From a virus: a DNA stretch of 41,027 nucleotides. Position 1 is the first letter of the stretch. Every line of letters begins with the position of its first letter. Under the pieces are notes generated by a model, which was not told the DNA's origin, did no database searches, and worked only from the letters and a program-made list of their open reading frames with translations. A program made the position numbers and the translations under genes. Of the stretch, positions 2,563 through 15,950 are shown in pieces. The DNA is taken from the IMG/VR virus record IMGVR_UViG_3300046714_000121, positions 1 through 41,027 of that record. The stretch is one strand, 5' to 3'.

Positions 2563-4109
2563 CCCTAACCGATAGGGTGGCGAATTACCTGGGTTACAAG
2601 CCGACCAGGGCGCTACTGCAAAAGCGCGGGTTTAACGTCACGCAAACATCGGTGGCCAACACCTTGAACCGTTGGTCACGGGCCAATACGTCGATGGATT
2701 ACGATTTGCAACAGTCGTTGCAAACGATGCGGGCGTTTAGTCGTGACCTGACTGTGAACAGTTTTATCGGTAAGCGTTTTTTGAATCTGGTCAAGACGCA
2801 CGTTGTTGGACCGAACGGTTTTTCGTTCAATGCCAAACCGCGATTCAATGATGGAAAGTTGGACGTGCAAGCGGCCATTGCGATCAAACAGGCGTGGACC
2901 GAATTCTGCGGGCGCGGCGTGTGCGACGTGACCGGCAAGCTATCCATGATCGACGTGGACCAGATCAACGTTGCATCGTTGGCCCGCGATGGCGAGTTCC
3001 TGGTGCGCGAGGTAATTGGGGCGCCTGTCAACGATTACGGTTACGCCTTACAACTGTTGGACACCGACAGGTTAGATATTCAATTTAATAACGACCGATT
3101 GGCGAATGGCAATCAAGTAGTCATGGGCGTTGAGTTGACACCCTACGGGCGCCCGGTGGCGTTCTATATCCTGACCCAACACCCAGGCAGTGTTCACGGC
3201 GGATACACTTATCATCGACATGACCGGGTGCCAGCCGAAAACTTGCACCATGTATTCATTCCAGAGCGGCCCGAGCAAACCCGCGGCATACCCTGGTTAC
3301 ATGCGGTCATGACCGAAACCAAAAACCTGACCGGGTTCGTTGAGGCGGCAATCATTGCGTCGCGGGTGGGCGCGAGCAAGATGGGATTTTTCACCTCACC
3401 CGATGGCGACCTTGCACCGCTGGCCGATGGCACTGATCCCGATGGCGAGTTGTACACCGACGTTGAACCGGGCAAGTTCGCGGCGTTGCCTAACGGTTAC
3501 GATTTCAAGCCTTTCGACCCGGATTATCCGAACGAAATGGTTGAATCGTTCATGAAAGCAATGTTGCGCAACATTGCATCGGGCATCAACGTTGCATATC
3601 ACACCTTGTCCAGTGACCTGGAGGGGGTCAACTTTTCCAGCACGCGGGCGGGCACCCTGGAGGAACGTGACGCATGGATGACCGTGCAAGGTTTCTATGT
3701 GCTGTCATTCAAGAATCTGGTTTATTCCAACTGGTTGAAATATGCGTTGCTCAATGGCCGAATCACGTTGAAAAAAGGGTCGGCGTTGCCAGCGGAAAAA
3801 TATGCAATCTACAACAAGCCTGTGTTCAATGGGCGCCGCTGGCAATGGGTTGACCCATCGAAAGACGTCAAGGCCAACACCGACGCGCTATTTGCCAAGA
3901 TCACAAGCCATACGCGAGTGCTGGCCGATGAGGGGGTGGACATTCGCGAACTGTGGCAGGAAATCGCCGACGAGGAAGATTTAGCCGAGGAATTAGAATT
4001 GTTCGTGCCCGCGTTTGCAGCACCGATGCCTGCGGCACCCGAGGCGGCGCCCGCCGAACCCGACGCACCCGAGGAACCGGCGCCCGAACCGAAGGATAAA
4101 AAGGAATGA
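2559..4109 (+). CDS. Portal protein, lambda gpB family
   Basis: The portal forms the dodecameric ring at the capsid vertex through which DNA is packaged and ejected. The protein is 516 aa (lambda gpB is 533). It has the typical N-terminal region RDLTVNSFIGKRFLNLVKTHVVGPNG, split here as residues about 64-90, followed by DGEFLVREV and the R-AGTLEERDAWM region near 360-375. The C-terminal 35 residues are rich in Ala, Pro and Glu and are probably disordered. The start overlaps the gpW-like stop in ATGA and the stop overlaps the next start, so the genes form a tightly coupled head operon. Confidence 0.93.
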   Translation: MTLTDRVANYLGYKPTRALLQKRGFNVTQTSVANTLNRWSRANTSMDYDLQQSLQTMRAFSRDLTVNSFIGKRFLNLVKTHVVGPNGFSFNAKPRFNDGKLDVQAAIAIKQAWTEFCGRGVCDVTGKLSMIDVDQINVASLARDGEFLVREVIGAPVNDYGYALQLLDTDRLDIQFNNDRLANGNQVVMGVELTPYGRPVAFYILTQHPGSVHGGYTYHRHDRVPAENLHHVFIPERPEQTRGIPWLHAVMTETKNLTGFVEAAIIASRVGASKMGFFTSPDGDLAPLADGTDPDGELYTDVEPGKFAALPNGYDFKPFDPDYPNEMVESFMKAMLRNIASGINVAYHTLSSDLEGVNFSSTRAGTLEERDAWMTVQGFYVLSFKNLVYSNWLKYALLNGRITLKKGSALPAEKYAIYNKPVFNGRRWQWVDPSKDVKANTDALFAKITSHTRVLADEGVDIRELWQEIADEEDLAEELELFVPAFAAPMPAAPEAAPAEPDAPEEPAPEPKDKKE

Positions 4110-4654
4110 ACATTCGCGAATTCACCGCGGGCGATACGATGAACATGGTTGAAACCGTGTCGGGTTATCCATCGACCGCGGGTTGGGGCATGTTTCATAA
4201 CTTGGTCCCGCAAACCGGCACCGGAACCAGCATCATCCTGACTTCAACCGGCAACGCCGAAACCTACACGACGTATTACCCGCCGACCGTAACAAAGAAT
4301 TGGGCCGCGGGCGAATATGGTTGGTTTAACTGGATGGCCATCGGCACATCGTCGCGGGTGACGTTGGGCACTGGTCATTTGACGATTCACGTTGACCCGT
4401 CAACGGCAACGGCGCCGCAAGATAACCGCAGTCATGCGCGCAAGGTGTTGGACGCGATCAACGCCACCATCGAAGGCCGCGCAACGCACGACATGGCGCA
4501 ATACATGATTCAGGGGCGGCAAGTGACGTTGCTTGGTCCCGAGCAATTGATTCGTTGGCGTGGCTACTATCAAACATTGGTGCAAGCCGAGGAAGTTGCA
4601 GCGGGCCAGGGCACCAAGAAATCAACCGGCATTCGTGTCCATTTCCGCCCATAG
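4106..4654 (+). CDS. Conserved phage head-module protein, function unknown
   Basis: This 182-aa protein overlaps the portal stop (ATGA) and precedes the capsid gene by 8 bases. The N-terminal 110 residues look like a beta-rich domain with many Thr and Gly. The C-terminal 70 residues contain DAINATIEGRATHD, YMIQGRQVTL and LIRWRGYYQTLV. This pattern of a helix, an 'xxIxGR' strand and a helix ending in an Arg/Tyr-rich segment recurs in small proteins placed beside portals in many proteobacterial siphophages. A head-completion or connector role is plausible from context only. I see no catalytic motif. Confidence 0.6.
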   Translation: MNIREFTAGDTMNMVETVSGYPSTAGWGMFHNLVPQTGTGTSIILTSTGNAETYTTYYPPTVTKNWAAGEYGWFNWMAIGTSSRVTLGTGHLTIHVDPSTATAPQDNRSHARKVLDAINATIEGRATHDMAQYMIQGRQVTLLGPEQLIRWRGYYQTLVQAEEVAAGQGTKKSTGIRVHFRP

Positions 4655-4662
4655 GGGGAACC

Positions 4663-6663
4663 ATGAAAAAGTTGCGTATGAAATTGCCGACGATGTTTCG
4701 CGACCTGGAGTTAGACCGGGCCGCAATCGACAAAGAAAAGCGGTTAGTTTCGATTTCGTTTTCGTCCGAGGAACCCGTTTCCCGATGGTTTGGCGAGGAA
4801 ATTCTTGACCATTCCAAGGGTGCGGTTGACCTGGGGCGGTTGTTAAGAGTGGGGTCGGTACTCGTTGACCATGCGAGCAACGACTTGATAGGCACTGTCG
4901 AACAGGCGTCCATCGGTGAGGACCGCAAAGGGCGGGCCACAGTCCGATTCGGGCGCAGTGCGCGGGCAGAGGAAGTCTTTCAAGACGTGATTGATGGAAT
5001 ACGCAAAGCGATCAGCGTAGGTTATCGCATCAACACATTGAAGTTGGAAAAGTCGGACAAAGAAACCGGGCTAGATACTTTCCGCGCAACCAAGTGGACA
5101 CCGCACGAGATTAGTTTCGTTGGCGTGCCCGCCGATGCGACGGTTGGCGTTGGGCGCGGCGACGATGCGAAAACCGAGGATGTTTTCATCGAAGTCAACG
5201 AAAAGGATTCGGACATGAAACGCAAACTTGCAAGGCTATTGGAAGGAATGCGCCAACGCGGGATGACCATCGAACAGGAAGGCACCCAGGAAGGCGGCGG
5301 CACACCGGCACCCGCGGCGGCGCCCGCGGCGACGACGACCCGCACCGACGCCACCCAGGAAGCGCAAAACGCGATCATCGACAAAGAGCGGGCGCGGTGC
5401 AAAGCACTGGACGACCTGGGCAAAGTCTACGAAAAGCACGGCGGCAAAGAGTTGGCCCGCGAAATGATTCTGGCAGGGCGCACGCCTGACGATTTCAAGA
5501 ATGTGATGCTGGAGCGCATCGGCACGCGGGACGTGCCCGCGGTAAACATCGGCATGACCCAAAAGGAAGTCAGGCATTACAGCATCCTGCGGGCAATCAA
5601 TGCCATTGCCAATCCAACCGACCGGGCAGCACGCGAGGCGGCGGCGTTCGAATTCGAATGCAGCGCGGCGGCACTGAAGCAAGAAAAGCGGGATTTGCGC
5701 ACGGGCGGGCAAATCGCGGTGCCGACCGATGTTGCTTTCGGGATGCAACAACGCAACCTCAACGGCTGGCAGATGGGCGCATCGCAACGCGATTTGATCG
5801 TGGGCACCGGCACGATGGGCGGGTTCACGGTGGCCACCGATCTGATTTCGTTCGTGGAAATGTTCCGCAATCGGTTGGCGTTGGCCCAGGCAGGCGCGCA
5901 AATGCTGACCGGGTTGCAGGGCATGGTGGCGATACCGAAGCAAACCGGCGGGGCAACGGCGTATTGGGTAGGTGAGAACGTGGCGCCGACCGAATCGCAA
6001 CCCGTGTTTGGTCAATTGACCATGAGTCCGAAAACGGTGGGCGCGTACACCGATATGTCACGGCGGTTGATTATCCAATCGTCCATCGACGTTGAAAACT
6101 TCGTCAAGACCGATCTGGCCAAGGTGTTGGCGTTGGCGGTCGATCTGGCGGGCCTGAGTGGACCGGGCACCGGCAACCAACCCGCGGGAATTCTGGCATC
6201 GACCAGCATCGGCAGTTCAACCGCGGGCGCCGCGGGTGGGGCGCCGTCCTGGGCGCAAGTCGTGGCACTGGAAACCGTGGTTGCGGTGGCCAACGCCGAC
6301 GTGCCGAACAGTGCCTACCTGTTGAATGCGGTCACGCGGGGCAAGCTGAAAACCGTCCAAAAGGGAACCAATCTGCCGTTTATTTGGGAAAGCGACAACA
6401 CCTTAAACGGATACCGGACGGTTGTTTCCAACCAGTTGCGTTCGAATCTGACCAAGGGCACCACGACGGGTTCGCTCTCCGAAATGCTTTTCGGGAATTT
6501 CTCCGATTACATTATCGGTATGTGGGGCGGGTTGGATTTGATGGTTGATCCCTACGCGGGCGCGACCGCGGGCACGTTGCGCGTGATCGTGCTGCAAGAT
6601 GTTGACGTGAAAATGCGGCACGACGAATCGTTCGCCGTTACGCCGGATTTGATTACGGTCTGA
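4663..6663 (+). CDS. Fused prohead protease, scaffold and HK97-fold major capsid protein
   Basis: One 666-aa reading frame carries three functions that many phages encode separately. Residues 1-180 resemble the U35/HK97 prohead protease, with likely catalytic H70 (LVDHAS) and S118 (AISVGY). Residues 185-370 form a charged, Ala/Pro/Thr-rich and helical segment that fits a scaffold or delta domain. From about residue 375 the HK97 capsid pattern appears (GGFTVATDL, MVAIPKQTGGATAYW, GPGTGNQPAGIL). ATG 4663 follows the strong Shine-Dalgarno AGGGGGA; upstream in-frame starts are less likely. An internal ATG at 5215 (residue 185) has its own good Shine-Dalgarno and may yield protease-free capsid precursor. 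Confidence 0.92.
   Translation: MKKLRMKLPTMFRDLELDRAAIDKEKRLVSISFSSEEPVSRWFGEEILDHSKGAVDLGRLLRVGSVLVDHASNDLIGTVEQASIGEDRKGRATVRFGRSARAEEVFQDVIDGIRKAISVGYRINTLKLEKSDKETGLDTFRATKWTPHEISFVGVPADATVGVGRGDDAKTEDVFIEVNEKDSDMKRKLARLLEGMRQRGMTIEQEGTQEGGGTPAPAAAPAATTTRTDATQEAQNAIIDKERARCKALDDLGKVYEKHGGKELAREMILAGRTPDDFKNVMLERIGTRDVPAVNIGMTQKEVRHYSILRAINAIANPTDRAAREAAAFEFECSAAALKQEKRDLRTGGQIAVPTDVAFGMQQRNLNGWQMGASQRDLIVGTGTMGGFTVATDLISFVEMFRNRLALAQAGAQMLTGLQGMVAIPKQTGGATAYWVGENVAPTESQPVFGQLTMSPKTVGAYTDMSRRLIIQSSIDVENFVKTDLAKVLALAVDLAGLSGPGTGNQPAGILASTSIGSSTAGAAGGAPSWAQVVALETVVAVANADVPNSAYLLNAVTRGKLKTVQKGTNLPFIWESDNTLNGYRTVVSNQLRSNLTKGTTTGSLSEMLFGNFSDYIIGMWGGLDLMVDPYAGATAGTLRVIVLQDVDVKMRHDESFAVTPDLITV
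5201..5217 (+). promoter_or_regulatory. Possible internal ribosome-binding site and start for scaffold-capsid
   Basis: AAAAGGA at 5201-5207 lies 7 bases before the in-frame ATG 5215, giving GAAAAGGATTCGGACATG. This closely resembles the site used by the tail tube gene (GAAAGGAATCGACATG, 9041-9056). It falls exactly at the junction between the protease and scaffold domains. Translation from here would give a 482-aa scaffold-capsid protein, comparable to the nested C/Nu3 arrangement in lambda. Confidence 0.6.
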
Positions 6664-6691: not shown

Positions 6692-6723
6692 GGGCCACCT
6701 GGACGCGGGTGGCCCATTTGTTA
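6692..6723 (+). terminator. Hairpin after the capsid gene, probable partial terminator
   Basis: GGGCCACC (6692-6699) pairs perfectly with GGTGGCCC (6708-6715) around an 8-base loop, followed by ATTTGTTA. The T-run is interrupted, so termination is probably incomplete and late transcription can continue into the tail genes. Confidence 0.55.
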
Positions 6724-6745: not shown

Positions 6746-8278
6746 ATGGTTTGGAAAGCTGAAGCGCCGCAAGGCAACGAATCGGGCAAGGTTCGTTTTG
6801 ACGTGATCCCATACATGCGCGGGCGCGGGGTGGACCTGGGGTGCGGACCCTGGAAAATTTTCCCGCATTGCATCGGGGTCGATCAGATACCAGGGGCCGA
6901 TATTTGTTCGCCTGTGACCCGCCTGGACCAGTTCGCCGATGGCAGCATGGATTTCGTGTATTCGTCGCATACCCTGGAGGATATTGACGACACCGAGGCG
7001 ACGTTGCGCGAATGGTGGCGCCTGTTGAAAGTCGGCGGGTACTTGATTTTGTATCTGCCACACAAGAATTTTTACCCCAACATCGGGCAACCTGGGGGGA
7101 ACCCGGCGCACAAGCACGACTTTTTGCCCGCCGATATTGTGGAAATAATGGGACACGTCACGGGCGATTTTGACCTGAAAGTGTTGCAGGAACGCGACCA
7201 GGGTAACGAATACAGTTTTTTGATGGTCTACCAAAGGCGCCAGGATTGCGCAGGATCGATTTTTTCGCACGCCGAGGCACGACCGGCCAAGACCGCGGCA
7301 ATCGTGCGTTACGGTGCGTTTGGCGATGCGCTGTGGGCATCGTCGCCAATCGCGCTATTGAAGCGGGACGGTTATCACGTCACGGTCTACACCGAGGCGC
7401 AAGGGCACGAAGTATTAAAGGCCGACCCGAACATCGACGCCTTTATCGTGGCCGAACCCTATTTCATGCCCGCGTCGGAATACCTGGGTTACTGGTTGCA
7501 CGAGTCCATCAAGTACGACCGTTGGATTAACTTGGTTCAGTCGGTCGAAGCAACCTTGCTACCGCAACCGGGGGACATACAATTTTATTGGTCCGATACG
7601 TTGCGGGCGAAATTCATGGACAAGAATTACATGGAGCAAATCCATGATTTTGCAGAGGTTGCGCACGAGTGGGGCAACCAAAAATTCTATCCCACCGACG
7701 ACGAAGCGGCATGGGCACAGGCGTTTCGCGGGGCGTGTCCTGGGCGGATGGTTGTCATCAATCCATCGGGTAGCACGATGCCGAAATTCTGGCCGCACGT
7801 GCAGGGCATGATGGATTTACTGGACGAACAAGGCATTTATTCGGTTGTCCTGGGCGATTTGCGGGATGCGAAATTGACGCCACCGAAGCGGGCACGCATC
7901 ATCGGTAAGGATTGGCCAATCCGCACGGCGTTGGCAGTTTGCCAGCGGGCGGATGTGGTCATCGGCACCGAGTCGGTTATGGTCAATGCGGTGGCCCACG
8001 AACCGCTGCTAAAAGTCGTGTTGTTGTCGCATTCGTCGCATGAAAATTTGACGAAGCATTGGGCCAACACGATTTGCACCGAACCAACGTTACCGTGTTT
8101 TCCCTGTCATCGCATACACCGCAACGAATTTTTCTGTGTGTGGGACAAGAAAACCAAGGCGGCGGCGTGTCAGGCAGTCGTTAGCCCGCAACAAATTTGG
8201 GGTGCAATCAAGGTTTATTTCGATCATTTGGACGAGGTTGACCGTGCCACTACTGCCAGCACTGAGACAACACCTTAA
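6746..8278 (+). CDS. Bifunctional SAM methyltransferase and GT9 (heptosyltransferase-like) fusion
   Basis: Residues 1-165 form a class I SAM-dependent methyltransferase: motif I VDLGCGPW at 29-36, then IGVDQI and a late LREWWRLLKVGGYLILYLPH segment. Residues about 183-500 look like a GT-B glycosyltransferase of family 9, the ADP-heptose:LPS heptosyltransferase family. They show VRYGAFGDALW near 187-197, INPSGSTMPKFWPH near 338 and DVVIGTESVMVNAVAHE near 402. The gene lies between the capsid and head-tail joining genes, so it is probably expressed late. The substrate is unknown: it could decorate the virion or alter the host surface. The terminus overlaps the next gene by 35 bases. Confidence 0.8.
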   Translation: MVWKAEAPQGNESGKVRFDVIPYMRGRGVDLGCGPWKIFPHCIGVDQIPGADICSPVTRLDQFADGSMDFVYSSHTLEDIDDTEATLREWWRLLKVGGYLILYLPHKNFYPNIGQPGGNPAHKHDFLPADIVEIMGHVTGDFDLKVLQERDQGNEYSFLMVYQRRQDCAGSIFSHAEARPAKTAAIVRYGAFGDALWASSPIALLKRDGYHVTVYTEAQGHEVLKADPNIDAFIVAEPYFMPASEYLGYWLHESIKYDRWINLVQSVEATLLPQPGDIQFYWSDTLRAKFMDKNYMEQIHDFAEVAHEWGNQKFYPTDDEAAWAQAFRGACPGRMVVINPSGSTMPKFWPHVQGMMDLLDEQGIYSVVLGDLRDAKLTPPKRARIIGKDWPIRTALAVCQRADVVIGTESVMVNAVAHEPLLKVVLLSHSSHENLTKHWANTICTEPTLPCFPCHRIHRNEFFCVWDKKTKAAACQAVVSPQQIWGAIKVYFDHLDEVDRATTASTETTP

Positions 8279-9053: not shown

Positions 9054-10244
9054 ATGGCACTGGGCAATACTTCACGAGCATCGTTGCGGTACAAACCCGA
9101 GGTTACACCGGGCACGATCAGTGCTACGGGCAACCACTACAATTTGCGATACACAAGCGACGCGCTTAAGTTCGCAATCAAAACGGTCAAGTCAACCGAA
9201 ATTCGGGATGACAGAAACCTGACCGACATTCCAACGGTTGATGCTGACATTATGGGCGCCATTGGAACCGAACTGTCTTACGGCGAATTCGATGAATTGA
9301 TCGAGGGCGCGTTGCAGGGCACGTGGTCAACCTGGGGCACGGGTGGCGCGGCAACCGGCACGTTGACCGCAACCGCAACGTCGTTGGTATTGGCGGGTGC
9401 AGGCACGGCGCCATTCACGGGCGCGGTTGCGGGGCAATGGTTCAGGGTGAGCGGCGCGGCCCAGGCGGGCAACAATGGTTGGTTCAAGATGACCGCATTG
9501 ACCAACGCGACGACCATCGCGGGCACCGGGTTTACTGCGGAAACCGGCACGACGGGCGTTGTAATGTCATCGTCACGCCTGACCAACGGCACCAACCAGC
9601 AAAGCTATACGTTCGAACGGAAAAATTCCGATCTTAATATTTGGTCGGCGTTTGCTGGTTGTTGCATCGATAAAATGTCGTTGAAGATGACACCGGGCGA
9701 AATTATCACGAGTCAATTCGACGTGATTGGTATGTCGTTTTCGTCAAGCACAACATCATCGTTGCTCCCAGGCACGACGACGCCGAGTGCTACCAACACG
9801 ATGTTTAACGCGACCGCCAATTTTTTCAACCTGTTGGAGGGTGGCTTGCCATTACCGGGCACCTATGCGCGGTCGATGACCATCAACGTCGCCAACAACT
9901 TGCGCGGCCAAAAGGCGTTGGGTGTTATGGGAAGCGTTGGTATTGGAAGCGGGCAGTTCGATGCGAACGCATCCCTTGAGTTGTATTTCGCGAACATGAC
10001 GATGTACAACAAATTCGTCAACAACATTGCATCAAGCATCAGTGTGCGCCTCAGTTCGACCGCGGGCGGCGCGGGGTATGTGTACACATTCCCGAATGTG
10101 AAATACACCGATGGCGCATACCCAACACCGGGGTTGAACCAGGATGTTGTTTTGACCCTGCCATTCCAGGCGTTGCTTGACCCGGTAACGGGCGCCGCGA
10201 TGATTATCGAGCGGGGTGGACCGGGGGTGCCGTTGACACCTTAA
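9054..10244 (+). CDS. Major tail tube protein
   Basis: This protein forms the stacked rings of the noncontractile tail tube. It is 396 aa. The N-terminus ALGNTSRASLRYKPEVTPGT and the KSTEIRDDRNLTD motif near 45-57 are typical of phage tube proteins. Residues about 95-170 form an inserted Gly/Ala/Thr-rich domain that may be displayed on the tail surface. The ribosome-binding site GAAAGGAATCGAC directly precedes ATG 9054. A hairpin followed by TTTTT lies downstream, as often seen after a highly expressed structural gene. Confidence 0.88.
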   Translation: MALGNTSRASLRYKPEVTPGTISATGNHYNLRYTSDALKFAIKTVKSTEIRDDRNLTDIPTVDADIMGAIGTELSYGEFDELIEGALQGTWSTWGTGGAATGTLTATATSLVLAGAGTAPFTGAVAGQWFRVSGAAQAGNNGWFKMTALTNATTIAGTGFTAETGTTGVVMSSSRLTNGTNQQSYTFERKNSDLNIWSAFAGCCIDKMSLKMTPGEIITSQFDVIGMSFSSSTTSSLLPGTTTPSATNTMFNATANFFNLLEGGLPLPGTYARSMTINVANNLRGQKALGVMGSVGIGSGQFDANASLELYFANMTMYNKFVNNIASSISVRLSSTAGGAGYVYTFPNVKYTDGAYPTPGLNQDVVLTLPFQALLDPVTGAAMIIERGGPGVPLTP

Positions 10245-15539: not shown

Positions 15540-15950
15540 ATGACGATTCAATACAACGCGACGACCCGCAATGCAAAGTTGGACGCAATCGAAACGACCA
15601 ACCTTACATCGTGCAGCATGGAAATCCGCACGACTGCGCAACCGGCCAATTGCGCAGCGGCCAGCACGGGGGCGCTACTGTGCACGATCAATTTGCCATC
15701 GGATTGGATGGGCGCGGCGGCGGCGGGTAGCAAGGCCAAGGCGGGCGTATGGTCGGCAACGGCGAGCGGTTCAGGGACGGCGGCGCACTTTCGCCTGTAC
15801 AACTCGCAAGCAACCAAAGATGGGACCACGTGTTTTATGCAAGGCACGATTGGCCAGGGGTCGGGCGATTTGTCTTTGGACAACACGACCATTGCCAGTT
15901 CGCAAACGGTAACGATCAACACGTTCACGATCAACGACGGCAACCCGTAA
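15540..15950 (+). CDS. Small conserved virion-associated tail protein
   Basis: This 136-aa protein belongs to a family that is frequent between tape measure and tail-fibre genes. Recognisable parts are NATTRNAKLDAIET at the N-terminus, PANCAAASTGALL and INLPSDWM near 36-57, HFRLYNS near 82 and the C-terminal TVTINTFTINDGN. The composition (Ala, Thr, Ser and Gly) and strand spacing suggest a compact beta-sandwich. The ribosome-binding site GAAAGGAAATAGAC precedes ATG 15540. Its exact place in the virion is not known to me. Confidence 0.6.
   Translation: MTIQYNATTRNAKLDAIETTNLTSCSMEIRTTAQPANCAAASTGALLCTINLPSDWMGAAAAGSKAKAGVWSATASGSGTAAHFRLYNSQATKDGTTCFMQGTIGQGSGDLSLDNTTIASSQTVTINTFTINDGNP

Follow-up and report, generated by a model that had tools for sequence, protein, structure and literature searches.

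How does a phage head encoded as a single gene set the ratio of protease to shell protein? The question is raised by a fusion gene on the + strand of a 41-kb virus record (41,027 nucleotides, hereafter the window), at positions 4663-6663, where protease, scaffold and capsid share one open reading frame. Translated only from its first start, such a frame would deliver protease and capsid in equal amounts; a second start inside it would supply extra capsid. From left to right, the gene order is terminase large subunit, portal, head-tail joining protein, the fusion gene, a gene with a methyltransferase domain, tail tube, and onward. The 666-aa fusion protein (P0001) matches the PHROG 617 profile over nearly its whole length (residues 7-659, E=1.3e-152) and the PF05065 capsid profile over residues 386-659 (E=1.4e-48). 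Together with the domains of an AlphaFold model, these matches bear out a preliminary description of the window, which had read the frame as a protease-scaffold-capsid fusion. The full-length start at 4663 lies 8 nt beyond the stop codon of ORF 4106-4654, the gene before it; its ATG is preceded by TAGGGGGAACC, and its ribosome-binding region (AGGGGGAACC, positions 4652-4662, + strand) gives a Shine-Dalgarno (SD) duplex of -8.7 kcal/mol.

The first domain, approximately residues 15-166 (4705-5160), is modeled with pLDDT >90. P0001 itself gave no PF04586 (Peptidase_S78) match at E<=0.01, but 60 of the 63 aligned homologues did (best E=4e-12), and judging from these matches the N-terminal part is a Peptidase_S78-type prohead protease. 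His70, Ser118 and Glu149 are invariant among the 63 aligned sequences, with a putative catalytic role for His70 and Ser118. Confident folding ends at about residue 166, followed by disorder at residues 167-179 (pLDDT <50), within a short linker (residues 167-184, 5161-5214), and by a helix at residues 183-198. This helix opens a helical scaffold, or delta, region (5215-5815), in which further helices are modeled at residues 230-255, 261-271, 275-288 and beyond, and which the mature shell would lack if phage R4C is a guide. The HK97-fold mature capsid domain covers approximately residues 386-666 (5818-6660); the R4C structure 8gta matches it in sequence (E=1.6e-46) and is its top Foldseek match (E=1.5e-22), and HK97 is matched as well. 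A terminator-like hairpin, recognized by consensus match only, is found just 3' of the gene (6692-6715, + strand); phages Mica and Mano likewise have annotated terminators after the capsid gene. Between the capsid and tail-tube genes, positions 6746-8278 encode a protein of 510 aa in which only a part near the N-terminus is a methyltransferase domain, the other ~400 aa being without Pfam or PHROGs match at the cut-offs used.

The linker carries the SD of a candidate internal start. As the preliminary description had pointed out, the letters read AAAAGGA (5201-5207, + strand), a 7-nt spacer (TTCGGAC) and an ATG in frame 1 (5215-5217), which is codon 185 of the fusion. Translation from Met185 would yield a 482-aa scaffold (delta)-capsid precursor (5215-6663). 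In the AlphaFold model Met185 sits at the protease/scaffold junction, where that description had placed it. The likeness it had noted to the tail-tube start is also there to be read: position 9054 is preceded by GAAAGGA-ATCGAC (GAAAGGAATCGAC-ATG), and the starts at 15540 and 22663 look like the internal site too. ATG 5215 has the lowest local structure among the in-frame ATGs of the gene (98th percentile), and the site falls in the 2-3% of the gene with least structure. Its SD duplex is weaker than that of the full-length start (-5.4 vs -8.7 kcal/mol), and an SD of this strength or more precedes 13.9% of the window's + strand ATGs. Judged in one genome, the site is thus moderately unusual and suggestive only: it could be a chance occurrence, in keeping with a reading in which the full-length fusion alone is made, the protease cuts itself free, equal amounts are tolerated, and the SD and Met reflect chance or constraints on the protein. 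The site was therefore tested across relatives.

Two scans of viral contigs, a genome scan and a phage collection together gave 115 distinct full-length fusions, from which 50 representatives less than 60% identical to each other were drawn. The genome collection yielded few loci, so most relatives are viral contigs without known host. Nearly all fusions are only 33-52% identical to the window protein. An in-frame ATG occurs 12-61 codons past the protease PAD motif in 49 of the 50 representatives. In 41/49 of these, the SD before the first ATG of this kind reaches -5 kcal/mol or stronger, vs 9.5% of the ATGs in the capsid body (p=2e-34) and only 15% of the out-of-frame ATGs of the same region. 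A motif rule (a perfect SD core of 4 nt or longer, 4-12 nt from the ATG) gave a similar picture, with 45/49 vs 10.4% of capsid ATGs. All this lies in a linker that is otherwise hypervariable. The signal is not one of raw Met density, a measure that we discarded because it is 2.5% at the junction vs 2.7% in the capsid; rather, almost every sequence has one Met there, with 13 extra in 2,500 residues. The comparison (41/49 vs 9.5%) is decisive for the site being real, and a conserved SD-Met site means that ribosomes probably also make the shell protein on its own, and more of it.

What is conserved is not the exact sequence. The internal SD reads AAGGAGG in two relatives (L048 and L068), GGAGG in R4C (L041) and GAGGTG in VP882 (L029). 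Even in L002, which is 87% identical to the window, a one-codon insertion has changed AAGGA into GGAG, so that the site becomes GGAG-9-ATG. The preliminary description had proposed the AAAAGGA-7-ATG arrangement as the thing to look for in homologues, and had held that loss of the internal SD or Met there would speak against an internal start: the literal letters and spacing proved not to be conserved, whereas the SD core (45/49) and the Met were kept. Compared across relatives, letters and spacing turn over while the SD-plus-Met function persists. This pattern bears on the idea that a recent gene fusion left the site behind as a relic, an old capsid start still visible and no longer used. A strength that is kept while letters change is what would be expected under selection, not decay, and the fusions that keep the site are deeply diverged.

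We then asked whether the protein sequence could account for the signal, by recoding the codons upstream of the ATG synonymously with the gene's own codon usage. The SD at the junction is stronger than in the recoded sequences (observed -6.55 vs a recoded mean of -4.44; p=4e-8), and capsid ATGs show the reverse trend. Local folding is weakest right at the site, with -5.8, and amounts to about -9 to -15 in flanking stretches 30-150 nt from it; it is also weaker than in synonymous recodings (p=0.004), with capsid ATGs again in reverse. As both SD and openness exceed synonymous recodings, the protein sequence does not explain them, and these comparisons show codon-level selection for the internal SD. 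Along with the conservation of the site in 50 diverged representatives and the variability of the linker around it, this makes it quite unlikely that only the full-length fusion is produced. Another reading is that the SD-like sequence merely pauses ribosomes so that the protease folds before scaffold and capsid, with no new initiation. The position of the site, exactly between folded domains in the AlphaFold model, would suit it. However, a pause requires neither open mRNA nor an ATG at the distance usual for a start, both of which are conserved, and the second residues of the nested product (P, E, S, T) are typical of N-termini; we regard this explanation as very improbable.

One relative encodes the two parts separately. 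In L021 the S78 protease is a gene of its own, whose last 31 nt overlap the capsid ATG; that ATG is preceded by AAAGAGGAACC and lies at the place equivalent to the internal start of the fusions. The existence of unfused relatives with overlapping genes speaks for the relic reading. However, the tree places the L021 capsid, a PHROG 617 member, among the fused sequences with moderate support (81/88); on this placement, the locus looks like a protease exchange that left the capsid start in use. A disused relic is, with the deep divergence of the fusions, hardly a credible account of the site. When L021 served as query in a closer search for further unfused relatives, the only matches were the own contigs of L021 (L136) and L002 (L137). 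The protease half is also exchanged between capsids, since in L024 and L026 a PHROG 617-type protease is joined to another capsid type (PHROG 10); the junction ATG is preceded by AAAAGGAAG in L026 and by no such sequence in L024. In Haematospirillum prophages (L008/L131:4796-5872), a second, protease-free capsid gene lies directly downstream of the fusion and has its own strong ribosome-binding site, GGAGGAAAAGAG-ATG.

The family has exceptions. In a cyanophage-like clade that includes the Synechococcus phages S-CBS1, S-CBS3 and S-LBS1, the junction Met is kept (MENTPD, MDPSTID) and has no SD. This clade apparently manages without an SD, which would favour production of the full-length fusion alone. 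Cyanobacteria depend less on SD sequences, and this might be the reason for the SD-free clade. L022 has a single Met in the region, at +16 and without SD, and a few other members have a weak SD at the junction. In a cyanophage-like subgroup, where the usual junction Met again lacks an SD, AGGAG-ATG immediately precedes the conserved IGL(S/T) with which the capsid begins, ~95 codons past PAD in L095, L120, L125, L117, L126, L122 and L124 and 98 codons past it in L072 and L119; initiation there could give capsid without scaffold.

Taken with the domain order and the conservation of the site, these comparisons make it very probable that, within its frame, the fusion still has the ribosome-binding site and start codon that belong to the capsid gene itself. 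Initiation at 4663 would then produce the 666-aa fusion, bringing the protease into the assembling prohead in some of the subunits, and initiation at 5215 would produce the 482-aa scaffold-capsid precursor from which most of the shell is built. Once assembly is complete, the protease would remove itself and the scaffold regions, leaving capsid domains of ~280 aa in the shell. Such an end state has been seen in R4C, of the same family, where 415 copies of the C-terminal 268 aa alone form the shell and the capsid model begins at residue 372 of the ORF, the protease and scaffold regions being gone (PMC10276861). The start of the R4C virion model aligns with P0001 residue 386. The internal start was not found to have a stronger SD than the upstream one, either in the window or in the named phages, where the two are of similar strength. 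With the upstream SD stronger in the window and equal on average in the named phages, SD strength alone does not predict capsid excess. An internal promoter taking the place of internal initiation was also considered and rejected, as a promoter search upstream of the site found none.

Similar sites occur in fusions of other descent. Actinophage fusions (PHROG 2263) and gp5 of Pseudomonas phage MD8 are published one-gene protease(-scaffold)-capsid fusions (PMC5513430, PMC8508860) whose relationship to PHROG 617 is remote or beyond detection; MD8 gp5 combines protease, scaffold and capsid in a single gene and differs in type, with a lambda-like protease and a Mu-like capsid. Of eight actinophage fusions, seven carry a similar site at their own junction; the SD-ATG after the protease has an SD of -5 or stronger in 6/8 and low structure in 7/8, and these junction ATGs, although picked by eye, differ from the other in-frame ATGs of the same genes (p=0.0017). 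EpicDab showed no clear site at the capsid junction; an internal ATG described in this phage is located before the protease and was tied to a holin-like idea (PMC9671378). MD8 has CAGGAG-9-ATG at codon 220 (Met220), just past the protease and within the 5% of the gene that has least structure. A strong SD-ATG also lies within its protease, at codon 185 (Met185), so chance sites do occur in genes. The same kind of site in unrelated fusions again argues against production of the full-length fusion alone. It is with no more than moderate confidence that we extend the retained-start reading to tailed phages at large: wherever protease and capsid are joined, the in-frame capsid start would always be kept, a minority of fusion subunits would carry the protease into a mostly separately initiated shell, the arrangement would have arisen repeatedly, in three or more unrelated types of fusion, and each annotated fusion would represent two products.

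The fusions of VP882, phiHAP-1, PPpW-3, Jilinvirus and the Cronusvirus phages RcCronus and R4C share with the window the same gene, domain order and place in the head cluster, and they are annotated as one product; an internal start is mentioned in none of the PHROG 617 records that we found. HK97 has an S78 protease followed by a delta-domain capsid, like the two products predicted here, although as two genes (4 and 5) where the window has one frame. In herpesviruses, UL26/UL26.5 is a protease-scaffold frame with a nested scaffold-only product made in excess; it resembles the window in nesting a product in such a frame and differs in that this product comes from its own transcript and the shell protein is separate. 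Protease-capsid fusions are already published (PMC5513430, PMC8508860, PMC8601537), and the nested start of lambda C/Nu3 was also known; for a nested start that would give a scaffold-capsid protein in such fusions, we found no earlier account in the open-access literature.

Many phage records list a single 'major capsid and protease fusion protein'. Should the internal start be in use, these phages have their most abundant virion protein annotated with a wrong N-terminus, and proteomics, structural work and capsid engineering begin from the wrong construct; cultured family members include R4C, HeidiAbel_Bas97, VP882 and PPpW-3. It would also answer how a one-gene head sets its protease-to-shell ratio, and extend the nested-gene principle of lambda C/Nu3 to the shell protein itself. 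According to PMC8508860, which cites Shaw and Murialdo 1980, lambda C/Nu3 is a protease-scaffold frame in which the scaffold alone can be started from within, in the same frame. Lambda differs in its S49-type protease and in having the capsid (E) as a separate gene, whereas the product nested in the window fusion would comprise scaffold and shell. When lambda C (L134) was scanned for SD-ATG sites, an internal ATG with CAGGAGGG was found at codon 309. It is the strongest low-structure SD-ATG of the gene and lies 70 codons past the annotated Nu3 start (codon 239), which has a weak SD and may be wrongly placed.
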